Shown here piece after piece: positions 1-33,835 of a stretch of DNA of 64,000 bases. Below the pieces are notes generated by a model. It was given only the letters and a program-made list of their open reading frames with translations, was not told where the DNA came from and searched no databases. The DNA lies in NCBI RefSeq assembly GCF_015709525.1, contig NZ_JADNRA010000019.1:1-64000 (forward strand), written 5' to 3'. This DNA is from Methylocystis sp. L43 (GTDB lineage Bacteria > Pseudomonadota > Alphaproteobacteria > Rhizobiales > Beijerinckiaceae). A program made the translations under genes and the position numbers. How positions within the stretch are numbered: the first letter of the stretch is position 1; every line of letters begins with the position of its first letter.

Positions 1-45
1 TGTCCACCGGCCGGGGCGTCGATCATTCCAGATGGAGAACCTCAC

Positions 46-363
46 ATGACCAAACGAAAAATTAGTTCAGACAATTTCATCGGCGGGCTTGCCACGGCGC
101 TGGGGGGCGGCGCTGGGAGCGTTGCGCGAGAGGCGGTCGGCCGCAATCTGAGCGCCGACAGCGAAGATGGAATCGCGGAAGTCGTCCGCTGGGCAACCGA
201 AAATCTCGACGCAGCACAGGTGCGCCGCTTGGGCGAGGAGCTGATCTCGGCCGCCGACAAGGGCGACGATGGCCGCCAGGCGCAAGACAGCGCATGGGGA
301 CGAAAGCCCGATCCTTTCGAGCAACGCTATCCCGCATCGCGCCGCATCGGTCAGCAATGGTGA
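46..363 (+). CDS. Hypothetical phage protein upstream of tape measure
   Basis: A 105-residue protein of unknown function. The start ATG has a GGAGAA ribosome site about 8 bases upstream. The sequence is soluble: a Gly/Ala-rich stretch near residues 14-28, then an acidic helical middle and a basic, Pro-rich C-terminus. It precedes another small protein and the tape-measure gene in one direction. In tailed phages that slot usually holds tail-assembly chaperones or minor tail proteins, so such a role is inferred from position only. No motif was recognised. Confidence 0.6.
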   Translation: MTKRKISSDNFIGGLATALGGGAGSVAREAVGRNLSADSEDGIAEVVRWATENLDAAQVRRLGEELISAADKGDDGRQAQDSAWGRKPDPFEQRYPASRRIGQQW

Positions 364-430
364 AAGGCTCGCCGCCCAGCAAGCGGCGGCGATCTCTGAA
401 ATGCGACCAATTCCGAGGGGAGTGTGACCG

Positions 431-718
431 ATGAGCAGTTTGGCGAGACGACTGACAAGAGCGAAACGACGCGAACGCCTGTCGCTGCGACGCGACCGCG
501 CTTCGAATTCCGTTGTCGTGAACTTCGGCGGCGACACTCGGACCCTTGATCTCACGCCCCAAGCGCCGCCGCCGTCGATCGAGTCCGCTTTCCAAGGGCT
601 CGAGAAGTCCTTGGCGGAGGTCGACGCCGCCGGGCGTGCGATGGGGCTTTCCGCCAAAAGCCTTAAGAAGGTCAAAGAGGCAATATTGGCTGTGGGCCTG
701 GAGGGTCTGAACCAATGA
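431..718 (+). CDS. Small phage protein, possible tail-assembly chaperone
   Basis: A 95-residue protein with a very basic N-terminus (Arg/Lys rich, residues 5-25) and a helical C-terminus. A GGGGAG ribosome site precedes the ATG. Its stop overlaps the ATG of the tape-measure gene (ATGA), showing translational coupling. Placement directly before a tape measure fits the second tail-assembly chaperone of many phages, but I see no slippery heptamer linking it to the upstream gene. The assignment is positional. Confidence 0.6.
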   Translation: MSSLARRLTRAKRRERLSLRRDRASNSVVVNFGGDTRTLDLTPQAPPPSIESAFQGLEKSLAEVDAAGRAMGLSAKSLKKVKEAILAVGLEGLNQ

Positions 719-2625
719 GCGACGACGCAAATGTTTTGAAGGAATTCGTCGTCGAGCTTGGCTGGAAAAGCGACGCGACACAGCAACGCCGCGTCACCGA
801 TGCGATTGCGTCGGTCACGAAGGGCGTCACGGTCATGGCGACCGCCGTCGCGGCCGCCGAAGTCGCGCTTGTCGGCATCGCGCAGCGTGTTGCTCGAAGC
901 TTTGAAGCGCTCGCCTATGCGTCATCGCGCGTCAACGCCAGCGCGAAGAACATCGCCACCTTCCGCTATGCGATCTCCCAGCTCGGCGGCACCGCCGAAG
1001 GGGCGATGGCGTCGCTTGAAGCGTTCTCGCGCAAGCTGAGGGAATCGCCCGGCCAGGAGGCGATGCTCAAAGGCTGGGGCGTGCGCACGCGCGACGCCAG
1101 CGGGAAGTTGCGCGACTCGACCGAACTGATGAAGGAATTCCTGCATTCGCGGAAGTTCCTCGCCCAACCGGAATTCACCCGGCTACAGCTTGCCGAGACG
1201 ATGGGAATCGACGAGCGCACCTATCGCGCGATGCTGGGCGACGTCGAGAAGTTCACGGCCGAATATCGGGACAAGATGCGCAAAGCCGGGCTGGACCCGG
1301 ATGCGGCTGCGGAGAACGCTAAGAAATTCCAGCAAGCCTGGCGCTCGATGCTTTCGAGCATTGAAGTCATCGTGGACCGCATCGCGACGACTCACGGCGA
1401 AAGGATCGCAAAGCTCCTCGACAAATTCGCCGACTTCGTCGACAAGCACGGCGACCGGATCGCTCGCGGCTTTGAAAGCATCATCGCGCTGATCCTGCGG
1501 GCGGCGGATGCGATCGGCCGGTTCGTTTCTTCTTTCGTCGAATTCATTTCGCAGGCGGACCCTGTCGTCAAAAAGCTGACCGGGATTGAGGGCGCATTCG
1601 AAGCCATCGCCATCGTGCTCTTGGCTCGCCTCATCCCTGGCGTCTCGACGCTGACAACGCTGCTCGCCGGCCTTGTCGGCGGGGCTGCATGGCGGTCATT
1701 CGTCGGCGTCCTCACCGCGCTGGGGCTGGGCGGCGGCGCGTTGGCGATGGGCGGCGCCGCGCTGGGCTTCGGCCTCGGCATGACGCCGGGGAGCGCCGGC
1801 GCCGGCGAGAACGAATTCGAGCGCCAAGAGAAACTCAAGCGCGACCCCGATCATTATAAGCGCCAGCAGCAAGGCGGCGGCGGCAGTCTTTGGGAGCGCG
1901 GGAAGCGCTGGTGGGGCGATCACGCGCCGGCGTGGGCCGGCGGCAACGCCTCGAAGTCAAAAAGCCTTTCCGCCAATCAAGGCGAGGCCTATGAAGCCGC
2001 GATCGCTGACGGGCTTAGCCCGACCGCGGCGCGCGCCCTGGTCGCCAACATGACCGGCGAAGCGCTTCACAAGCCCGGAGATCATCATTGGGATGTCCGG
2101 CATATGTCGCAGGGCATCGTGCAATGGGATCCAGAACGCGCCGAAGCGATCAGAAAGCAATTCGGCAAATATCCAAAGGATATGTCGGTCGCCGAACAGA
2201 CGCGCGCCGCCATCTGGGAAATCCGCAACCACAAGCGCTTTGCCGCGACGAAGGAAGCGCTCGAAGGCGACGATCCGGAGCAAATGGTCAGGGCGCTGGT
2301 CAAGAATTACGAGAACCCCCGCGATCATGGCAGCGCGATCGCGCAACGCCGCGCCTATTACCGGGCGCTGGCGAACATCGGCGCGCGCCGCGCCAATCAC
2401 ACGGGCTTTGTCGGTTCCGCGAATGCTGCCCCTGTTTCCGCTGGCCCAATGGGCGGCGGGAATTCCTTCGTCCACAACATCGCCCACGGGCATTCGATCC
2501 ACGCGAAGACGACCATCAACGTCAACGCTGCTGGCGACCCCGGAGCGACGGCACGGTCGATCGCCGGCATCCAGAAGCGCGTTCACGCCGACACGATCCG
2601 CAACATGCAGGGCGCCGCGCATTGA
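715..2625 (+). CDS. Tail tape-measure protein with tail-lysozyme domain
   Basis: A 636-residue protein. Residues about 1-250 are helical and tape-measure-like, about 290-370 hold hydrophobic Gly/Ala-rich segments, and about 420-540 match the phage tail lysozyme fold (a segment with TAARALVANMTGEA, then GIVQWDPERAEAI). Such domains locally open peptidoglycan while the tail penetrates the cell; the rest sets tail length. The gene overlaps the preceding small gene by 4 bases. No baseplate or fibre genes follow: a terminator comes about 90 bases later and the gene style changes, so this looks like the truncated end of a prophage separate from the Mu-like one at 11-53 kb. The phage tail role is secure; the exact family is less so. 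Confidence 0.8.
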   Translation: MSDDANVLKEFVVELGWKSDATQQRRVTDAIASVTKGVTVMATAVAAAEVALVGIAQRVARSFEALAYASSRVNASAKNIATFRYAISQLGGTAEGAMASLEAFSRKLRESPGQEAMLKGWGVRTRDASGKLRDSTELMKEFLHSRKFLAQPEFTRLQLAETMGIDERTYRAMLGDVEKFTAEYRDKMRKAGLDPDAAAENAKKFQQAWRSMLSSIEVIVDRIATTHGERIAKLLDKFADFVDKHGDRIARGFESIIALILRAADAIGRFVSSFVEFISQADPVVKKLTGIEGAFEAIAIVLLARLIPGVSTLTTLLAGLVGGAAWRSFVGVLTALGLGGGALAMGGAALGFGLGMTPGSAGAGENEFERQEKLKRDPDHYKRQQQGGGGSLWERGKRWWGDHAPAWAGGNASKSKSLSANQGEAYEAAIADGLSPTAARALVANMTGEALHKPGDHHWDVRHMSQGIVQWDPERAEAIRKQFGKYPKDMSVAEQTRAAIWEIRNHKRFAATKEALEGDDPEQMVRALVKNYENPRDHGSAIAQRRAYYRALANIGARRANHTGFVGSANAAPVSAGPMGGGNSFVHNIAHGHSIHAKTTINVNAAGDPGATARSIAGIQKRVHADTIRNMQGAAH

Positions 2626-2710
2626 CGACATGATGGCGTTCGGACTTTCGCGCGCGCGATTTTGTGCATAGAATTCGGTCAGCTGACGGCGATTTTGCGC
2701 CGTCCAGAAC

Positions 2711-2747
2711 GCCCCGACCGTGGATGTAACGGCGGGGCATATTTTTT
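2711..2747 (+). terminator. Rho-independent terminator after the left prophage remnant
   Basis: GCCCCG pairs with CGGGGC around an inner CCGT/ACGG stem, followed at once by ATATTTTTT. It lies 85 bases after the tape-measure stop and would end transcription of the prophage remnant before the AT-richer accessory genes. Confidence 0.75.
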
Positions 2748-3613: not shown

Positions 3614-3657
3614 CCGCAGCGGGTGCTTCAATCAACTCATTGAACCACCCGCTGCGG
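3614..3657. repeat. 44-nt near-perfect hairpin across the ietS stop codon
   Basis: CCGCAGCGGGTG (3614-3625) pairs with CACCCGCTGCGG (3646-3657), and inside it TTCAAT (3627-3632) pairs with ATTGAA (3639-3644) around a 6-base loop. The ietS stop codon (3632-3634) is in the inner stem and loop. No T-run follows on either strand, so it may act as an mRNA 3' stabiliser or attenuator rather than a classic terminator. Confidence 0.7.
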
Positions 3658-6247
3658 CACGAACCGCTGTCTGCACGGCCGCGCGCACCTCATCGTAGAC
3701 GGCAATGCCCGAACCGACGGCGGTCTCAAGGCTTATCGCCAGCGCGAACGGCACCCGCTCATCAATGGAGCCCGCTTGGCCTCGGCACGTGACGCGTAAA
3801 CGGAGAAACCCTTCGTCCAGAAACGCTATGGCGCGGTCGCCTTCAAATACGCAGTGGGAAACTGTGCCTCGGTTAATAGCGGAGAGAGTCGGCTGATCCG
3901 GGATGCGGCCAACCGCAAGCGAGAATTTATCATCACCATTCGGAACGACCTCCAGCGTTGCAGCTCTATATTGCTGGTGCCGCGGATTGATGGGCGTGAG
4001 CCACGCAAGAGTTATTGTGAGGCGCCGAACTTGGGTGAACCCCTCAAGGGACGGGGGAAGCGGAATGTCGAATTCGTCCTGGACGTCCTCTATGATGTCG
4101 CCATATGCGAACAGCGTCGCGCGCTCGGCTGAACAATCAAGCACTCGACCAATGTCAGGACGCCCGTAGCCGAGAAAGCGAGATATGTTGTCCCGATGCC
4201 GTTGCCAATCTCGTCCCGGGGGGCCGAATGCTTCTTCGAGACGCTCACCGGCCTCTCCCCAGGCCGCGCCGTGGACCAGCAGCGCCTTCAAAAGCACTGC
4301 CGCGTGGGCGCGCGGAATCTCGTAACCAGCGTCCAACAGGCCATCGTAAATCTGAACCGCGGAACGAGTTAGCAACGCGGTCGCATTGCTCGTGCCAACC
4401 GTTCTCCGCTGAAGATTGAGACGCCCTGTTGCGTTACTATCTGCCGTGGCGGCTAACTGCCCAGCATAGGAACCGCCGCCGTCGACCGTCAGCCAAATAT
4501 GCCCCTCGTCCTCCGATGCGCGCACCAACTCTCTGCCGCCGTCGAATAAGATGTCGGGCTTTACGATGCGACGGTAGCCGAGACCGACGCCAGAACTGAC
4601 ATTCGGCAGACCGCAATTGGGGAATGGATCTGTGAGATTGAGCGGCTCCGGGGGGTTCTCGAACGCATCCGCGTGCCAGGCGCCCACGGCCAATGCGTTG
4701 ATACCTTCGGCGGGTGACAACAGCGACCGAAACGCCTTCTCTCTGTCAAGGGCGGAAATTATGGCAGCCTCGCGCGCCTCGGGCGTCGCGGCATCGAAGT
4801 CTGCGCGCGTGCTGAATTCAGGAACGGGAAGCCAGCTCCGCACGTTGCCGGCGCTCACCAGAAATAGAACTCTGTGCTGGAACGAGAGCCAATCGATTAG
4901 TCTCGCCCACGGGCTCATCCTTCCCGCGAATGGTCGATTAAGATCACCAAGTGAAAGGTTCAGAACGATGATGCTCGGTGCTGAAGCGGGTTCGTTACCT
5001 TCGCCGGCGAGGAGTCGGCGCACCGCAATATAGATAATGTCCAGAGGCAATTTCTCGGGAGGCGTCATTTCCGCGTCTTCGACGACATTATAGATCATCA
5101 CCGGGCGCACGTAGACGGGTCTCGCCAAGGGCGGTTCACCCGCCTGCAAGTCACCATGGACGATCAACGAGGCCATGCTCGTGCCATGAGCTCGTCGAGC
5201 AGCGGGAGTCCTAGCGCCGAAGTCCTCAGGATCGTCTAAGATGATCCGTCCGGCGAGGCGTACGTGATTTGCCAGAGGAACGCCATCTAACAGCCCGGCG
5301 ATCGGCGTGCCTTGCGGCGGGTCTCCGCTGCTCTCCATGAGCGGCTCTTCGGGGAGGTCATCCGGATTTGGAAAGAGCGCGACCGACTGCGGCCGCAAAT
5401 ACATGATGTCGTCCAAACGAGCCAACGTCACGTTCGGATGCTCGAGCAGCTCTGTGACCCGCTGTGCCGGCAGGTCGACGAGCATTCCATGGTAACGGAT
5501 GGGCTCGATTGCCGCGCTTGACACGACCTGTCCGCCCAACGCGGCGACTTGATTCCCGATTTCCAGCGCTGCGCGCGCCCGTCGATCCGTCTGCTTGTGA
5601 AACCATAGCTCGACCTCGAAGCGAACCGGCTCTTCTGGCCGGGCTTTGATGCGCTTGCGCCAGTAGTTTAACGTCTCAGGCAGCACCCGATCTGTTGGTC
5701 CCCATGCCCGCACATCGCGCAATAGGTCGAAAAGGGTCTTCCAAGGGCTGAATCCCCAAGGCATCGATTGACCGGAACTGTAAATCTCCCAGAGCCGGAG
5801 TATCTCTTGCAGAGCACGCAGATCGGGCATGGCCATATATAGGCGCCCCCCAATCGACTCGTCGCGGCGAACCTTCGCGCCTTGCTTGGTCTCAACGATA
5901 TGGAAATTGTCGTCGGGAGAGAGTTCAACGTCATCTTCGAGAAGAAACTCAAGCCCCGTAATACGGCCGGCTTGACTATAGAAATCCCCGAGTGAACCCG
6001 CGACCTCAAACACAATTGCGCGTTCAGGCGCGATCGCGTCGGGATCGGCCCGCAGAGACATGGTTGCCTGTGAAGCGGATTGTGCTGCCACCTGCCGCAG
6101 TCGATCAAAACGAGGGCCCAATCTCTGACCCTGGCTTTGGGGCCCGGGACGCGAGATCTTGGCGTTCGGATCGACGGGTGCGGGTGCTTTTTTTATCCGC
6201 CCGTTACGAGTTGATTCCGGAATCTGAAGAAGTGGTCGCTCGGCCAC
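3632..6247 (-). CDS. ietS: Subtilisin-like serine protease of an ietAS defence module
   Basis: An 871-residue S8-family peptidase. The catalytic triad is visible: Asp321 (AGLLDGVPL), His354 (AHGTSMASLI) and Ser620 (VGTSNATALL), with the oxyanion Asn468 in LVSAGN. About 300 residues precede the protease domain and 230 follow it, probably for substrate recognition or partner contact. No signal peptide is seen, so it should act in the cytoplasm. The start overlaps the end of the AAA ATPase gene by 44 bases, a tight two-gene unit. This arrangement matches IetS of the ietAS pair, first described as a plasmid stability/incompatibility locus in Agrobacterium and later listed as an anti-phage system. 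Presumably the ATPase controls or feeds the protease; the trigger and target are not evident here. Confidence 0.85.
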   Translation of the reverse strand: MAERPLLQIPESTRNGRIKKAPAPVDPNAKISRPGPQSQGQRLGPRFDRLRQVAAQSASQATMSLRADPDAIAPERAIVFEVAGSLGDFYSQAGRITGLEFLLEDDVELSPDDNFHIVETKQGAKVRRDESIGGRLYMAMPDLRALQEILRLWEIYSSGQSMPWGFSPWKTLFDLLRDVRAWGPTDRVLPETLNYWRKRIKARPEEPVRFEVELWFHKQTDRRARAALEIGNQVAALGGQVVSSAAIEPIRYHGMLVDLPAQRVTELLEHPNVTLARLDDIMYLRPQSVALFPNPDDLPEEPLMESSGDPPQGTPIAGLLDGVPLANHVRLAGRIILDDPEDFGARTPAARRAHGTSMASLIVHGDLQAGEPPLARPVYVRPVMIYNVVEDAEMTPPEKLPLDIIYIAVRRLLAGEGNEPASAPSIIVLNLSLGDLNRPFAGRMSPWARLIDWLSFQHRVLFLVSAGNVRSWLPVPEFSTRADFDAATPEAREAAIISALDREKAFRSLLSPAEGINALAVGAWHADAFENPPEPLNLTDPFPNCGLPNVSSGVGLGYRRIVKPDILFDGGRELVRASEDEGHIWLTVDGGGSYAGQLAATADSNATGRLNLQRRTVGTSNATALLTRSAVQIYDGLLDAGYEIPRAHAAVLLKALLVHGAAWGEAGERLEEAFGPPGRDWQRHRDNISRFLGYGRPDIGRVLDCSAERATLFAYGDIIEDVQDEFDIPLPPSLEGFTQVRRLTITLAWLTPINPRHQQYRAATLEVVPNGDDKFSLAVGRIPDQPTLSAINRGTVSHCVFEGDRAIAFLDEGFLRLRVTCRGQAGSIDERVPFALAISLETAVGSGIAVYDEVRAAVQTAVRAAAGGSMS

Positions 6248-7349
6248 GTTTGTCGCTCTTTTTGCTATCGCTTGCAGTTACGCGGGATCTCCAGACGCGG
6301 AGTTCACGGTCGACTATTTCGTTTGGACGACCTTCCCCTAGAGACAACACGACGCGCCGAAGCACGTTGGTGCAGAAATCTTCAACTTCAGCGAAGCTCG
6401 ATCCCCGAAGCGCCCGAGCAAGTTGATCAGGCGAGCGACCCAAATCGCCCGGCAGCGGGCGGACGCTGAAAAACGCGGCTATGAAGTTGGCAATCTGGCG
6501 CTCGCCGGGCGCAGGCAATTCGAGACGGAGCTGAAACCGGCGCCAAGCGGCGCGATCGAGAAGCTCTGAATGGTTCGTCGCAGCGGCGACAATCGTCCAG
6601 CTGGGGAGATCGTCTATTTGCAGCAACAGCGAGCTGACGACGCGCTTGATCTCGCCAGTTTCGTGAATGTCGCCGCGCTCTTTCCCGATAACGTCGAACT
6701 CGTCGAAGAACAGAACGCAGGGTGTCGTGCGGGCGAAGTCGAAGACCTTGCGAAGCCGGCCCGCGGTTTCACCTAGAAAGCTACCAATAACGGCTTCATA
6801 TCGGACTGTGAACAGCGGAACGCTGAGCGCTTCGGCGAGTGCTTCGGCTAGTGAAGTCTTCCCGTTTCCCGGAGGCCCCGCCAATAGAAGGCGATGACGC
6901 GGCTCAAGCCCGTGCGAGCGGAGAACGTCTGCGCGACGCTGTTCCTCGATCAGCTCTTCGCACGCCTCGCGAGTGATTGTTGGCAAGAGCAGGTTCGCAA
7001 GACTTTGCTGAGGGGAGCGCTCGACGAAGAGATCACGGGTTGACGGCCCCCGCGCAACGGTCTCCGAGGGCGGCCCGGCCGTGGGCGTCTGCCCGTTGAA
7101 TTGAGCTTTGAGCGCACCACTGAGGCGATCGGCAAGGACGTTGTGTTGCTTGGCCCGCTCATCGGCGATCAGCGCCTCGGCGGAGGTGCGCGCAAGATTG
7201 CGGTCGCCGGAGGCACCCGCCTTTACCAGTGCTACCAAGAGATCACTTCGAGCCATCCGCCTTTTCTTTCCCGCCGTCTTGGTGGCCTTCTTCTGGGCCG
7301 ATTGACGGCTAGGCTCGGTGGAACGCTCAGCCTGCCTAAACAAATTCAC
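6204..7349 (-). CDS. ietA: AAA ATPase of an ietAS defence module
   Basis: A 381-residue AAA+ ATPase. Walker A is GPPGNGKT (158-165), Walker B is VLFFDEFD (about 212-219), sensor 1 is the Asn of AATNH (259), and Arg residues near 270-271 fit an arginine finger. The lysine-rich N-terminus (1-110) lacks a recognised domain. An alternative start at Met32 is possible. Membrane-associated features are absent. It is the upstream gene of the pair and overlaps ietS, consistent with fixed stoichiometry. In the family the ATPase is thought to regulate the protease or remodel its substrates; that is knowledge of the family plus inference, not visible here. Confidence 0.85.
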   Translation of the reverse strand: MNLFRQAERSTEPSRQSAQKKATKTAGKKRRMARSDLLVALVKAGASGDRNLARTSAEALIADERAKQHNVLADRLSGALKAQFNGQTPTAGPPSETVARGPSTRDLFVERSPQQSLANLLLPTITREACEELIEEQRRADVLRSHGLEPRHRLLLAGPPGNGKTSLAEALAEALSVPLFTVRYEAVIGSFLGETAGRLRKVFDFARTTPCVLFFDEFDVIGKERGDIHETGEIKRVVSSLLLQIDDLPSWTIVAAATNHSELLDRAAWRRFQLRLELPAPGERQIANFIAAFFSVRPLPGDLGRSPDQLARALRGSSFAEVEDFCTNVLRRVVLSLGEGRPNEIVDRELRVWRSRVTASDSKKSDKRGRATTSSDSGINS

Positions 7350-8141: not shown

Positions 8142-8384
8142 TCAATTGCTTAGCGCCCGATACCGCGGCCAGTCGGGCATCAGGTGAACATCCCGGGAGC
8201 CGCACGCCGAACAGACGAAGCGCCGAGACCGCGCCAGGGCGATAAACGGCGTCCATGGCGCCGTCCGCATGGCGTCGAAGGCGACCTTGCGGTGATGGGT
8301 GCAACGAAGCCCGGTGCACCAGACCCAGGCCCCAGCGACGCCCTCGGCGCGAAGATCGGCGATCGTCGGAGGGGCAGGGTGCAT
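8142..8384 (-). CDS. Small zinc-ribbon-like protein
   Basis: An 80-residue protein with two Cys pairs: WCTGLRC near residues 23-29 and FVCSACGSRDV near 58-68, then a DWPRYR tail. This layout (tandem half zinc-binding knuckles, IADLRAEGVAGAWV start) resembles a widespread group of small uncharacterised alphaproteobacterial proteins that probably bind zinc structurally. Function unknown. It is on the same strand as neighbouring accessory genes. Confidence 0.7.
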   Translation of the reverse strand: MHPAPPTIADLRAEGVAGAWVWCTGLRCTHHRKVAFDAMRTAPWTPFIALARSRRFVCSACGSRDVHLMPDWPRYRALSN

Positions 8385-8411
8385 GACGCAAGCGCTCTCC
8401 GGCGGCCGGGG

Positions 8412-8620
8412 CTAAACGTCCGACAGTCTTTTGCGGATCCGGTCTTGCGCTTCCGCGATCTCGGGCGTCAATGCATCGCCAAAGTGCGCCGCTTCATAGA
8501 GCGGACGGATTTCGATCTTGCTTGGGCCGGGCATCGGGTTGGGGCATCGCTTCACCCATTCGACCGCCTCGGCCATATCCCTGACCTCCCAAAGCCAATA
8601 GCCGGCGACCAGCTCGGTCG
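8412..8620 (-). pseudogene. Truncated YCII/DGPF-domain protein
   Basis: The frame ending at 8412 encodes about 67 residues typical of the C-terminal part of YCII/DGPF-domain proteins (AGYWLWEVRDMAEAVEWV, then RCPNPMP and IEIRPLYEA). The normal N-terminal half is missing: upstream the frame reads into unrelated sequence and then into a tRNA gene. No proper start lies next to the conserved part. I read it as a 5'-truncated remnant left by insertion or deletion beside the tRNA. Confidence 0.65.
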
Positions 8621-8811
8621 TCTCTATCTTCAATTCTCGTGATCGCGAAAAGGTGGGGTGGATCCGAGTTTCCATGTCGCATTTCATGTCGCGTGGAGTT
8701 GCCGCGTCTTTTTGAAACTCGTGGGAAATCAATTGTAATCGATGCAACAAAACGCGACATGGGATCGCGGCGCTTGAGTGGTTTTTTCGCGGATAAGTGT
8801 TTGATTTTATT

Positions 8812-8888
8812 TGGTAGCGGAGGAGGGACTCGAACCCCCGACACAAGGATTATGATTCCTCTGCTCTAGCCGACTGAGCTACTCCGCC
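8812..8888 (-). tRNA. tRNA-Met (CAT), elongator-like
   Basis: Full cloverleaf on the minus strand: acceptor GGCGGAG pairs with CTCCGCT, anticodon stem GAGGA/TCCTT with loop ATCATAA (anticodon CAT), T arm GGGGG-TTCGAGT-CCCTC, discriminator A and encoded CCA (8812-8814). The paired 1:72 position and an anticodon stem lacking three G:C pairs argue for elongator Met; a CAU tRNA-Ile precursor cannot be fully excluded. Confidence 0.93.
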
Positions 8889-9631: not shown

Positions 9632-10051
9632 TCAGCGCCCCTTGAAAAATTTGAGAAGCACGGGGTCGATATAGCTCCAGCTCGCCGCCAACACCACAAT
9701 GAGCGAGACGCACAGGAGCAGCCCCAGCGTTGCGCGTGATCGCTGCGGCGACGCACACGCCGAACCTGAAGCGCAAGGAGCCGGACGCTTCCACCACCAT
9801 GCGCCCCATCCCCCGACAATGGCCGAGGCGCTGATCGCCAGAAGCGGGACGCGCCATTCGACGACCATCTCAAGGCCGCCGAGAATGCCCGTGCCCGCGC
9901 CGAGCGCTGCAAGGCCGAGCGGTATGACGCAGCACGAGGAGGCGACGACCGCGCCAAGACCCGCGACGAGCCCCAACGCTGCGAACCACGTCGGCGCGGG
10001 AGGAGAAGCAACGGCTGGCGTCGTCGCTTGCGCGGCGTCATTGGTGGTCAT
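9632..10051 (-). CDS. merT: Mercuric ion transport protein MerT
   Basis: A 139-residue inner-membrane protein with three predicted membrane segments (about 22-44, 53-75, 103-125). The Cys pair in VASSCCVIPLGLAALG in the first helix and a second Cys pair in the loop (CASGSAC) are the expected Hg(II) relay. The chosen start has an AAGGAAGGA ribosome site; a longer upstream frame would run through the promoter and merR. It is transcribed away from merR. No merP or merA is present, so Hg(II) would be imported with no visible reductase here; a merA elsewhere is needed for classic resistance. Confidence 0.88.
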   Translation of the reverse strand: MTTNDAAQATTPAVASPPAPTWFAALGLVAGLGAVVASSCCVIPLGLAALGAGTGILGGLEMVVEWRVPLLAISASAIVGGWGAWWWKRPAPCASGSACASPQRSRATLGLLLCVSLIVVLAASWSYIDPVLLKFFKGR

Positions 10052-10087
10052 GGCTCGTCCTTCCTTGATGGTTGGGCTATCCTGCAC

Positions 10088-10104
10088 CCTGTAGTGACTA
10101 CAGG
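10088..10104. promoter_or_regulatory. MerR operator between merT and merR
   Basis: CCTGTAG-TGA-CTACAGG is a perfect 7-bp inverted repeat. On the merT strand TTGCGC sits just upstream and a weak -10 (CAGGAT) about 19 bases after it, giving the over-long spacer that MerR-family activators correct by DNA distortion. It lies between the divergent starts of merT and merR. Confidence 0.8.
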
Positions 10105-10120
10105 CGCAAGAGAAAAATCC

Positions 10121-10528
10121 ATGCAGCCCTTGACGATTGGCAGGCTCGCGGCGACGACGGGCGTCAAACTTGAAACCGTGCGCTATTATGAGCGTATCGA
10201 GCTCATGCCGCCGCCGGCACGGACGGCGAGCGGACATCGAGCCTACGAACAGGCGCACGTCCGAAGGCTCGCCTTCATCCGCCGCGCCCGCGAACTTGGA
10301 TTTAGCATCGAGCAAATCCGCGCTCTCTTGGCTCTTGCCGAACCGTCCCGCGCCTCTTGCGCCGAGGTGCGAGAGATTGCGCGAACTCATCTTGATGACG
10401 TGCGGGCAAAGCTCGCCGACCTCACCAAGCTTGAGCGCATTCTTGGCGCGACCATCGCCCGTTGCTCTGGCGACCTTGCCCCCTCATGCCCCGTGCTCGA
10501 CATGTTGGCGACGACGGAGCGTGCATAA
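10121..10528 (+). CDS. merR: MerR-family mercury-responsive regulator
   Basis: A 135-residue MerR protein: winged helix at 1-70 (TIGRLAATTGVKLETVRYYE, SGHRAYEQAHVRRLAFI), a long dimerisation helix, and Cys residues in SRASCAEV, IARCSG and PSCPVLD, matching the three-Cys Hg(II) site. The start chosen (10121) follows the operator and leaves the divergent promoter free; longer upstream starts would overlap it. It should repress without metal and activate merT and the GDCCVxC gene with Hg(II). Confidence 0.88.
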   Translation: MQPLTIGRLAATTGVKLETVRYYERIELMPPPARTASGHRAYEQAHVRRLAFIRRARELGFSIEQIRALLALAEPSRASCAEVREIARTHLDDVRAKLADLTKLERILGATIARCSGDLAPSCPVLDMLATTERA

Positions 10529-11509: not shown

Positions 11510-12229
11510 TCACAATCGATTATCCCACCATATCACGCGGCCGATGATCTTGAGGCGCTTGAGGTCGGGGCCGCGCAGAATTTCGGGACTATATTTTCGA
11601 TTGTCGCTCGTCGCGACAATCTCTTTGCCAACACGGCTTAGGCGCTTCACGCGCAAATGGTCCTCCTGCAGGAAGACGAAAATATCGAGGTCGCCAGAGG
11701 CCTTCGGAGCCATCCTCGGCAGCTCCGTTTCGCTCTCATTCACGAGGAGTAGCGCCTTGTCGTCGAAGGTCGGCCACATGCTATCGCCAGACGCGCGCAT
11801 GAAGCTCACCTTGGCGCCTGGCGCCGCGAGCTTATGCAGCATCCAGAGCGGGAACGGCAGGGTCGCATTGACCGCGTGTATTTGATTGACCGATCCGGCG
11901 CCGGCTGCGGCTCTTACCTCGAGCTTGGGAACCCTGGCCACATCGAGCTGCGCGGTCTTCTCGCGATGGCCGGGCTTTGCGAGGCGCGTCGGCGTCGGCG
12001 TCGGATCGTCGCTCGTTCCCGCCAAATAGCTCATTGAGACATTCAGCCTCGTCGCGAGCTTCAGCAGCGTGTCCGACCCCGGATCATTCGCGCCGCGCGC
12101 GAGCCGCGCCAAGGTCGTCGCGGGTATGTCGAGGTCCGAGGCGGCGGCGGCGTAGGAAGGATATTTCGCCAATAGGCCTTTGAGCCGCGCGGGAAAATCA
12201 ACCAAGTTCGGTTCATCTTGGCCAATCAT
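11510..12229 (-). CDS. CI-type phage repressor with S24 peptidase domain
   Basis: A 239-residue repressor. The N-terminal helix-turn-helix spans about 12-70 (YAAAASDLDIPATTLARLARG), and the C-terminal LexA/CI-like S24 domain carries Ser150 (ASGDSMWPTF) and Lys195 (HLRVKRLSR) as catalytic dyad, with an AAG-type cleavage region near 108-111. It should hold the prophage silent and self-cleave after DNA damage via RecA. I chose the 12229 start because the longer 12277 start falls in the operator palindromes. It is divergent from the Ner-like gene, as c and ner are in Mu, though the Mu repressor itself is not S24-type. Confidence 0.88.
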   Translation of the reverse strand: MIGQDEPNLVDFPARLKGLLAKYPSYAAAASDLDIPATTLARLARGANDPGSDTLLKLATRLNVSMSYLAGTSDDPTPTPTRLAKPGHREKTAQLDVARVPKLEVRAAAGAGSVNQIHAVNATLPFPLWMLHKLAAPGAKVSFMRASGDSMWPTFDDKALLLVNESETELPRMAPKASGDLDIFVFLQEDHLRVKRLSRVGKEIVATSDNRKYSPEILRGPDLKRLKIIGRVIWWDNRL

Positions 12230-12274
12230 GCGCCCACGCAAACCAAACTTGATTGACAGTCGTCCAAAGCTCTG

Positions 12275-12296
12275 CAATGTTCGACCAACATTGGTC
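12275..12296. promoter_or_regulatory. Overlapping operator palindromes between repressor and ner
   Basis: CAATGTT-cgacc-AACATTG (12275-12293) overlaps GACCAA-CA-TTGGTC (12283-12296). Two interleaved inverted repeats in the 87-bp divergent gap are the best candidates for repressor and Ner binding, deciding lysogeny versus early transcription. Confidence 0.7.
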
Positions 12297-13626: not shown

Positions 13627-15744
13627 ATGCGCGACTGGCTATCGGCACAAAATCTCGCATCGCTCGCGCTTCCGGGCCTTCCGGCCACGGAGCGTGGCTG
13701 GCGTGACTATGCCGAGCGCGAGGGCTGGCTTGCGCAAAAGGACAAGGTGCGGGCGCGCCAGGGTCGCGGCGGCGGGCTCGAATTCCATATCGATCTTCTG
13801 CCGCCCGCGACGCTCGCCGCCTATGTCTCGAAACACATCGGCGCGGTCGATCTCAAGGCGGAATGTTTCGCGCCACTCGAAACGTCGGCGGCGCAGGACG
13901 CGCAACTTACGCTTCCGGCGGCTGAATCCCGCGATGCCCGTCTCGCACTGCTCACCGCCGCCGATCGGCTCGCGCGCGACGGCAATCTGTCGCGAACAAC
14001 GGCCGACCGCCTATTCGTCGCACGCTACAACCTCGCCAAGATCGACGTTGAAACATGGGTGCGCCAGGCGTGCCCGAAGATCTCGCCGCGCTCGCTGCGC
14101 CGCTGGCGGAGTCTCAAGTCATACCAAGGAATTTCACGGCTCGGCGTAGACAAGGGCGCCGCGCGTAGGGGTAAGGGTGCTCTCGAGTCCGGCGAGCAGG
14201 GAAAGGTAAGAGCGTTCCTGCTCGCCGCCATCGCCAAACAGCCGCATCTGACGAGCGATCATCTCAAAGCGCTGTGCGAAGATCAATTTCCGTCCGTTAA
14301 AGGCATCTCGCTACGCTCGTTCCAGCGTCTGCGCGCGAAAATCGAGCGCGAAGACAAGGTTCTTTTGACCAAGGCGACTAATCCCGACGCTTTCAAGAGC
14401 AAATACAGGCTCGCTGGCTCAAACTCGCATCCCGTGTCGCGGCTCAACGAGCTTTGGCAGATCGACGCGTCGCCGGCCGACGTCATGTGCGTCGACGGTC
14501 GCCATTCGGTCTATCTCTGCGTCGACATCTTCTCGCGTCGCCTTATCGTTTACGTCTCGAAAACGCCGCGCGCCGAAGCCGTGGCGCTGCTCATCCGCCG
14601 GGCGATCCTCGCCTGGGGCGTTCCCGAGCGCGTTCACACCGACAATGGCTCGGATTTCACCGCCAAGAGCACGCAACGTCTGTTCGCCGCGCTCGGCATA
14701 GAAGTCGAGTTGTCGCGACCCTTCCAGCCGCAGGAAAAAGGCCATGTCGAACGCGCGGTGCGTACCTTTCAGCACGATCTTGCGCCGCTGATCGAGGGTT
14801 TCATCGGCCACAACGTCGGCGATCGAAAAGTCATCGAAGAGCGCCGCGCTTTCTCGCAGCGGCTCGGCCTCGACGACGCCGGCGCGATGAAGCCTCAATA
14901 CGCCGGCGCGGAGCTACAGGCGATCTGTGACGAATGGGCGGCCGGCCGCTACGCCAATCGTCCGCACAGCGGCCTGAACGGCGCGACGCCCTTCCAGATC
15001 GCCGCCGCGTTCGACGGCGTCGTGCGGCGCATCGACGATCTGCGCGCGCTCGATCTGCTGCTCGCGCCAATCGCCGGCGGCGACGGCACGCGCATCGTCA
15101 CCAAGAAGGGCGTGCGCATCGATCATTCCTACTATCTCGCGCCGAACGTCATGCCCGAAACGCGCGTTTTCGTGCGCATGGATCCGGAGGACATGGGGCG
15201 CGCCTGGCTCTTCTCCGAAGACGGCGCGGAATTTTTGGGCGAAGCGATCTGCCCCGAACTCGCGGGAATTGATCCCAAGGCGGCGGTCATGGAAGCGCGC
15301 GCGCAGCAGAAACGTCTGCTCGAAGGAAGCGCCGCGCAGCTGCGGGCCGACATGCGGCAGATCAAGCCGCGCGACATGGTCGACGTAATCGTCCGCAAAG
15401 CGGCGAAGGACGCCGGCAAACTCGTCGAATTTCCGAAGCGCCATGAGAGCTATACGACGCGGGGGCTTGAGGCCGCCGGCGAGGCGGCCGGAAGCGTCCA
15501 AGCGCCTCCGCTTCCGATTTCCGATCAATTTGTCGACGCAACATCGGAAGTCGCCCCCGTTCATCAGCTTCCTGAAACGCGCCAACAGCGATTCCGCCGC
15601 GCGCGCGAACTGGAAGCGCATCTCGAAAACAATGAGCGTCTCTCGAACGAAGAGGCGTTGTGGCTCGGCGGCTATCAGGTCGGCGCCGAATATCACGCAA
15701 TGAAGGAGATGTTTGAGGAGTTCGGCGAAGCCGCGTTGCGGTGA
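13627..15744 (+). CDS. A: Mu-type DDE transposase A
   Basis: A 705-residue transposase. The N-terminal Mu DNA-binding domain spans about 3-70 (GLPATERGWRDYAEREGW); HTH domains continue to about 240; the DDE integrase core is 270-400 with Asp280 (LWQIDASPAD), Asp339 (RVHTDNGSDF) and Glu375 (EKGHVERAV). The Mu C-terminal barrel and an MuB/ClpX-contacting tail follow (about 470-705). It cuts and joins phage ends to target DNA for integration and replicative transposition. Length is close to MuA (663). All catalytic residues are present. Confidence 0.95.
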   Translation: MRDWLSAQNLASLALPGLPATERGWRDYAEREGWLAQKDKVRARQGRGGGLEFHIDLLPPATLAAYVSKHIGAVDLKAECFAPLETSAAQDAQLTLPAAESRDARLALLTAADRLARDGNLSRTTADRLFVARYNLAKIDVETWVRQACPKISPRSLRRWRSLKSYQGISRLGVDKGAARRGKGALESGEQGKVRAFLLAAIAKQPHLTSDHLKALCEDQFPSVKGISLRSFQRLRAKIEREDKVLLTKATNPDAFKSKYRLAGSNSHPVSRLNELWQIDASPADVMCVDGRHSVYLCVDIFSRRLIVYVSKTPRAEAVALLIRRAILAWGVPERVHTDNGSDFTAKSTQRLFAALGIEVELSRPFQPQEKGHVERAVRTFQHDLAPLIEGFIGHNVGDRKVIEERRAFSQRLGLDDAGAMKPQYAGAELQAICDEWAAGRYANRPHSGLNGATPFQIAAAFDGVVRRIDDLRALDLLLAPIAGGDGTRIVTKKGVRIDHSYYLAPNVMPETRVFVRMDPEDMGRAWLFSEDGAEFLGEAICPELAGIDPKAAVMEARAQQKRLLEGSAAQLRADMRQIKPRDMVDVIVRKAAKDAGKLVEFPKRHESYTTRGLEAAGEAAGSVQAPPLPISDQFVDATSEVAPVHQLPETRQQRFRRARELEAHLENNERLSNEEALWLGGYQVGAEYHAMKEMFEEFGEAALR

Positions 15745-33758: not shown

Positions 33759-33835
33759 TGCGGGGTAGAGCAGCCCGGTAGCTCGCTTGGCTCATAACCA
33801 AGAGGTCGCCAGTTCGAATCTGGCCTCCGCAACCA
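33759..33835 (+). tRNA. Phage-encoded tRNA-Met (CAT), initiator-like
   Basis: Cloverleaf: acceptor TGCGGGG/CTCCGCA, D arm GAGC-AGCCCGGTA-GCTC (nearly identical to bacterial initiator tRNA), anticodon stem CTTGG/CCAAG with loop CTCATAA, T arm GCCAG-TTCGAAT-CTGGC, discriminator A and encoded CCA. Unlike true initiators it has a paired T1:A72 and only two G:C pairs at the base of the anticodon stem. It is inside the morphogenesis cluster. Confidence 0.9.

Follow-up and report, generated by a model that had tools for sequence, protein, structure and literature searches.

The ietAS system pairs an AAA ATPase, IetA, with a subtilase of the S8 family, IetS, and reportedly showed anti-phage activity in the defence screen of Gao et al. 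2020. We analysed a 64,000-nucleotide stretch of Methylocystis sp. L43 (contig NZ_JADNRA010000019.1, positions 1 to 64,000; hereafter 'the window'), in which two genes at 3632..7349 had been proposed from the letters alone to be an intact pair of this type, lying between a prophage remnant and a tRNA gene.

The documented activity of the homologues is that of a toxin–antitoxin system (PMC5006074, PMC8562856). The first described pair, IetAS of pTiC58, is cited in both articles as a protease toxin with an ATPase antitoxin. The sgiAT genes of Salmonella genomic island 1 are a functional toxin–antitoxin pair in E. coli and resemble the window pair in having the AAA antitoxin gene upstream of the subtilisin-like toxin gene on an integrated island (PMC5006074). 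In Mycoplasma mycoides subsp. capri, the TA132/3 pair again joins an AAA ATPase to a subtilisin-like protease. Its protease T133 caused a 5-log loss in E. coli, and the 3-log loss seen with a dual plasmid was fully neutralised by the ATPase A132 (PMC8562856). Each differs from the window pair, the pTiC58 genes in being plasmid-borne, the Salmonella island in being mobilised by conjugative plasmids rather than being a phage-like element, and TA132/3 in its shorter protease (757 amino acids) and distant host, and all three are likened to it here by description, not by sequence. A Pf phage also carries ietAS, and its lysogens could not be made, so there was no direct test there (PMC11878078).

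The two window genes are a well-preserved ietAS pair, a known kind of system in a new place. We establish the identity of the partners, their intact active sites and their co-occurrence, describe the anatomy of the element that carries them, and present structure models of both proteins. The pair itself is one more member of a known system; the greater value lies in the carrier element, which is of a type that has received little study, and in solitary IetA proteins of viral contigs.

Identity and anatomy of the ietA–ietS pair

Both genes lie on the minus strand, with ietA (6204..7349, 381 amino acids from a GTG codon) upstream of ietS (3632..6247, 871 amino acids). The end of ietA and the start of ietS overlap by 44 bp (6204..6247), and the two intact open reading frames (ORFs) of the original prediction were borne out in coordinates, lengths and overlap. 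In a profile search, the best PADLOC matches of the pair were the ietA and ietS models PDLC04231–04234, rather than unrelated housekeeping proteases. IetS matched PDLC04233 with an E-value of 1.1e-299 (residues 2–864 of 871, profile positions 2–850 of 855) and IetA matched PDLC04232 at 1.3e-142 (residues 32–364 of 381, profile positions 1–327 of 330). Pfam domains agree with this (Peptidase_S8 at 5.7e-12 in IetS, AAA at 3.9e-29 in IetA), as do AlphaFold2 models and Foldseek searches. The window pair shares with the PADLOC systems the gene order, the overlap or near-overlap, the combination of an AAA ATPase with an S8 protease, and matches of near full length. The identification as ietAS follows from these matches together with the domain anatomy and the co-occurrence of the partners described below. 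An alternative start for ietA is the ATG at 7256, giving 350 amino acids, which is where the PADLOC profile match begins. The GTG at 7349 is nevertheless plausible as the start, because the 32-residue Lys-rich extension that it adds ('DLFG...KKKRM') is in frame in all four of the closest relatives (L046–L049).

The catalytic residues of IetS are D321 in LLDGV, H354 in AHGTS, N468 in AGN and S620 in GTSNA, and are invariant in 9/9 and in 30/30 aligned sequences, the window's own being among the 30. The AlphaFold2 model of IetS, built with 30 sequences, has a mean predicted local distance difference test (pLDDT) score of 86.9 and a predicted template modelling (pTM) score of 0.89. The model predicts an N-terminal region, a unit at 208–286, the catalytic domain and a C-terminal beta-rich region (∼709–842), in that order. 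The 208–286 unit is predicted to be a beta-alpha-beta-beta-alpha-beta unit directly before the catalytic domain, and we take its topology to be that of subtilase propeptides (I9). It ends in LRPQS (R285 in 22/30, P286 in 27/30, Q287 in 21/30 and S288 in 18/30 sequences), after which the alignment shows a variable linker. The top solved Foldseek match was 3afg, the Tk-SP protease with its N-propeptide (E-value 2.1e-18), with KP-43 (1wmd) and PCSK9 among the further matches and the unprocessed pro-subtilisin 3whi at rank 18. Hydropathy revealed no signal peptide-like or membrane segment (maximum 19-residue Kyte–Doolittle means 1.63 and 1.27). We infer that IetS is a cytoplasmic subtilase with a propeptide-like domain.

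IetA carries GPPGNGKT at 158–165, FFDEFD at 214–219, Asn259, R270/R271 and FLG at 191–193, which we take to be the Walker A, Walker B, sensor-type, candidate arginine-finger and pore-loop-like motifs, respectively. K164, T165, D216, E217, N259, R270, R271, L192 and G193 are invariant in 30/30 sequences. The residues named in the original prediction for both partners are thus all present and invariant. The IetA model (pLDDT 82.6) predicts a three-helix N-terminal domain followed by a single AAA module with a pore-loop motif, and Foldseek matched it to proteasomal ATPases, p97 and FtsH.

The partners also occur together elsewhere. Among 289 class genomes, the own one counted, seven had a match to PDLC04233 below 1e-50, and IetA adjoins IetS in six of these; in the seventh, G265, IetS is shortened and the stretch seen contains no IetA. 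Among 23 viral loci found with IetS, IetA lies directly upstream in 20, at an A-to-S distance between −149 and +22 (−44 in the window), and in the other three IetS starts at most 364 bases from the contig end. The IetA profile itself matches all 289 class genomes, housekeeping AAA proteins included, and pairing is therefore the informative test. In the same search the window IetA scored 473 bits, against at most 118.5 for FtsH-sized frames (∼650 amino acids). The own genome holds four other AAA matches; two of them lie at contig starts and were recognised by eye as FtsH. An FtsH-like extracellular domain has been reported in 'ietA' (PMC10924106), which is consistent with IetA-only calls catching FtsH.

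The four closest relatives, in Sphingomonas, Methylocella, Bradyrhizobium and Methylobacterium records, align with the window proteins end to end, at 71–73% identity for IetS and 80–83% for IetA. Their surroundings, with ORFs read by eye and not by profile, look like mobile DNA or defence loci: L046 has type I restriction genes, L047 and L049 each have a serine recombinase gene immediately upstream, and L048 has an integrase beside tRNA-Glu. We know of no experimental test of this ietAS branch or of its closest group, L046–L049.

The carrier element at tRNA-Met

By its sequence surroundings, the pair is cargo of an element of ∼17.8 kb, measured from repeat to repeat, that is integrated at tRNA-Met (cat; 8812..8888, minus strand, found by ARAGORN). 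The 3' half of the tRNA gene forms a 48-bp attachment repeat (8812..8859, plus strand), of which a 100% identical copy lies in the same genome at C26:132690-132737. Contig C18 begins with the window, whose first 956 bases are 100% identical to the end of contig C26. On C26 a tyrosine integrase gene (phrog_1, 1e-61) adjoins the far repeat copy and is followed by genes for a RuvC-like resolvase, a replication initiation protein and a large terminase (phrog_2, 2.9e-17). Across the overlap the element continues with a gene for a tape-measure-like tail protein with a C-terminal tail-lysozyme domain (715..2625, plus strand; PHROG tail 9.4e-34, Pfam Phage_lysozyme2 1.6e-13), then ietAS, then tRNA-Met. 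The assembly is not closed at the join of C26 to C18, which is drawn from the 956-bp overlap and synteny, and there is a run of N in the C26 part of the element.

The empty site was sought in 39 genomes of the genus (own included), and ten relatives with a tRNA match were compared. The window from ∼57.4 kb onward, a Calvin-cycle operon by eye, lies directly beside tRNA-Met in five of the ten, and a C26 stretch lies within 1.5 kb to its left in two, with both sides present in one (G006). In the own genome, the C26 stretch found in G006 is ∼9 kb away from the repeat, which means that this site of G006 has undergone other changes as well; the one found in G023 is 1.6 kb away. Four relatives showed neither flank cleanly, three matching at the tRNA only and one (L053) having differently arranged matches. 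Hence at least one relative that lacks the element has C26 and C18 sequence on the two sides of this tRNA. The attachment repeat, the integrase and the empty site support the earlier proposal of an acquired island beside tRNA-Met. The view of the pair as lying between a prophage remnant and a tRNA has to be revised: the phage genes, the pair and a partial YCII-like ORF all belong to one element, which has the tRNA as its attachment site.

The remaining genes of the element's window part are small. Two plus-strand ORFs at 46..718 (46-363 and 431-718), inside the stretch shared with C26, had no PHROG match. At the tRNA-proximal end, the YCII-like ORF (8412..8846, minus strand; Pfam YCII 2.2e-5) covers profile positions 51–85 of 95 only and is partial. 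Its stretch recurs near tRNA-Glu in a sister element (window 8360-8625 against L087 9928-10187, 86% identity, with the tRNA at L087 10618). A further small ORF (8142..8384, minus strand) lies in a stretch, 8153-8382, that is repeated in the own genome, with five more matches and one shorter match; the sister element of contig C21 carries one of these. Between the tape-measure gene and ietAS, window 2706-2746 has many copies in the own and related genus genomes and looks like a dispersed repetitive extragenic palindromic (REP)-type repeat.

Phage satellites, such as the phage-inducible chromosomal islands (PICI) and the capsid-forming cf-PICI, are small tRNA-integrated elements. The element resembles them in size, in its integration at a tRNA, in combining an integrase with a terminase gene, and in its variable cargo at one end; it differs in having a large terminase and its own tape-measure gene, and in that no HK97-type portal or capsid was found. 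Its terminase family is present in 10 of the 39 genus genomes (own included), with three copies in the own genome. The C21 element shares the tape-measure gene (91% over window 1-2629), ends near tRNA-Asn and has a KilA-N gene in the variable end, while the G018 element ends near tRNA-Glu and encodes an OLD/AriA-like ATPase (AAA_15 9.9e-22, PADLOC AriA 2.3e-23). In a PADLOC scan of ten cargo proteins of sister elements, two matched, both from G018 (the OLD/AriA-like ATPase and, weakly at 1.6e-5, a PD-T7-5-like protein), and the other eight had no PADLOC match. PHROG scans of 20 element proteins identified integrase, helicase, replication, terminase and tape-measure genes and no portal or capsid, several proteins having no match at all; the label TerS for an ORF in the small-terminase position was dropped, as it had no PHROG match. 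HK97-type portal (PF04860) and capsid (PF05065) genes matched in 6/6 genomes searched, none of them within ∼20 kb of an element terminase, though other capsid folds are possible. The match nearest to an element terminase was a capsid match in G350, and the G017 element is on a contig of only 11.9 kb.

From this gene content we infer that the elements look like phage satellites. The family, with its integrase, large terminase and variable cargo and with no HK97-type portal or capsid nearby, is represented by L080 10106-19922, L081, L082, L087, L088 and L174-L181, and is possibly an undescribed kind of phage satellite. ietAS would here have a natural carrier, an integrase/large-terminase element family whose variable end holds ietAS in this genome and an OLD-like ATPase in a relative.

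Proposed restraint of IetS by IetA, and alternatives

The joint explanation that we favour, rather probable but well short of assured, is that ietAS is cargo in which IetA restrains IetS until infection or loss of the element frees the protease. Translated from the overlapping upstream gene, IetA would be present before and together with IetS. As an AAA ATPase with a threading pore loop it would form a ring, bind IetS and keep it harmless, a role suggested for this organism because the protease is toxic and the ATPase neutralising in the homologues. IetS would be made with its propeptide-like unit, which may take part in silencing it, and without a secretion signal. The trigger could be a phage takeover that interferes with IetA itself, with its synthesis or with its ATP supply, or else loss of the element, and the freed IetS would then cut cell proteins, leading to growth stop or death before phage release. 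An anti-phage effect of the window pair is suggested by its family membership.

Several results weigh against this reading or against parts of it. A scan for promoter-like sites, which covered only the sigma-70 type, found none where 2.2 were expected. The NCBIfam equivalog cut-offs NF042956/NF042959, in contrast to the PADLOC models, were failed (46.6 of 900 bits for IteS and 231.3 of 510 for IteA). S8 or unnamed proteins beside IetA in five phage records are only 21–29% identical to the window IetS over 119–462 columns, two of them not significantly, while a wider-group IetS profile recognises all five at 53–111 bits. Judging from these scores, the window pair is not an equivalog of the NCBIfam group, and it appears to be a family member from a branch outside those equivalogs, its membership resting on the PADLOC models and the anatomy. 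The fold match of IetS to 3afg is partial (TM score 0.39 by query and 0.62 by target, root-mean-square deviation 8.7), and does not show whether the propeptide parts are aligned. Finally, IetA looks like an active translocase, beyond what a passive antitoxin requires.

It is possible, if on balance doubtful, that the pair serves mainly as an addiction module, holding the element in the chromosome, with any anti-phage effect as a by-product. The pair lies near the attachment site of an integrated element. The homologous sgiAT genes reportedly help to maintain Salmonella genomic island 1 (PMC5006074), and plasmid stability is the effect cited for the pair that was described first (PMC8562856). 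Related IetS proteins occur on 68 of 72,556 plasmid records, mostly rhizobial and all below 60% identity. However, when sgiAT was placed on a test plasmid with its own promoter, no post-segregational killing was seen (PMC5006074). The restriction genes beside L046 and the OLD-like ATPase at the same end of a sister element fit a defence slot. Addiction and defence are in any case compatible, and neither role excludes the other.

A second alternative is that IetA activates IetS, either by threading phage or host proteins into it or by stripping its propeptide-like unit, the two together making up an ATP-driven protease. We consider this unlikely but a serious rival, since the motor of IetA is intact: Walker A and B, sensor, arginine fingers and pore loop are all kept in a fold like that of proteasomal ATPases and FtsH, and IetS for its part keeps the propeptide-like unit and the conserved LRPQS before a variable linker. 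Against it, a toxic protease and a neutralising ATPase have been found in two studied homologues (PMC5006074, PMC8562856).

That the pair is a decayed passenger with no present function is very improbable; the carrier looks satellite-like or defective, and small unassigned ORFs and the partial YCII ORF lie on either side, but both genes are full length, no catalytic residue is missing, and the alignment to the four closest relatives runs from one end to the other. A housekeeping AAA protease beside an unrelated subtilase, an origin that the ubiquitous IetA profile matches might suggest, is ruled out by the bit scores, by the match of the subtilase to IetS over its whole length and by the conserved arrangement of the two genes.

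IetA without IetS on viral contigs, and other features of the window

A scan of viral contigs (IMG/VR) for IetA gave 62 loci. A quick tree of 59 IetA rows (43 paired, 16 without IetS), drawn from the IetA scan, the IetS scan and bacterial loci, was made with supports from the Shimodaira–Hasegawa approximate likelihood ratio test (SH-aLRT) and no bootstrap; identical proteins, matches below 110 bits and five rows lying too near a contig end to be judged were left out. One group (SH-aLRT 98) contains eight unpaired rows and eight called paired, of which L115 has an IetS fragment only, and within it L118 groups with the paired L092 and L107 at support 100. A wider IetS profile at full sensitivity found no IetS in L118, L123, L137, L133, L136, L144 and L145. 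All seven solitary IetA proteins match PADLOC IetA at 2.7e-88 or better; the N-terminal domain is kept in L118, L123 and L137 and is lost or replaced in the other four, which are AAA-only. Phage genes were neighbours in 4/4 loci checked, L136 standing directly before small terminase, large terminase and portal genes, L133 near a small terminase gene, L118 near exonuclease and endolysin genes and L137 near a gene for an Erf-like annealing protein. For L123, the single neighbour scanned weakly matches a helicase-loader family (1.1e-5).

Other candidates were set aside. L116 has an IetS remnant detected by the wider profile, and L157 belongs to another, distant lineage. Seven IetA rows (L160-L165 and L168) fall outside the group holding the paired rows, on a branch with support 89 in the midpoint-rooted tree, and were dropped as solitary members of the lineage; the two scanned match IetA profiles at 6e-52 and 8e-47. 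Among 50,697 isolated-phage records, IetS of the window lineage had no match at an E-value of 1e-5, and IetA matched 65, with seven matches covering 80% or more of the query. The five records opened all hold a neighbouring S8 gene or a 2.3-kb ORF matched by the wider IetS profile, so the case for solitary IetA rests on the IMG/VR contigs only.

We tentatively suggest, as an idea with less chance of being right than wrong, that ietAS is a toxin–antitoxin defence of satellite-like elements against competitors, and that the solitary IetA of phages (L118, L123 and L137, and the AAA-only L133, L136, L144 and L145) neutralises IetS as an anti-ietAS protein. Our confidence is modest because mere loss of IetS, or another use of IetA, also fits, and because the isolated-phage records hold pairs. 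DarTG provides a precedent for a stolen antitoxin (PMC11481870). Among the papers listed in literature searches, which covered few subscription papers and preprints, none dealt with solitary phage IetA or with the mechanism of this lineage. Solitary viral IetA nested among paired ones makes the question of antitoxin versus activator directly testable: if IetA is an antitoxin, the phage-encoded protein should protect cells against IetS and allow plaques to form again.

In the record of phage PfAC08 (L187 216-3526) the deposited names are swapped, the ATPase being marked IetS and the S8 peptidase IetA.

Beyond the tRNA-Met, genes for a MerT-like membrane protein (minus strand) and a MerR-like regulator (plus strand) were recognised by eye at window 9632-10528. 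They are followed by a Mu-like prophage at 11510-53597 (ends approximate), which lies between the tRNA-Met and the Calvin-cycle operon and is an insertion separate from the ietAS element. Its repressor (11510-12277) and Mu-type transposase (13627-15744) were identified by PHROG and its head and tail genes by eye. It contains a second tRNA-Met (cat) at 33759-33835, clearly unlike the copy at 8812-8888 in sequence.

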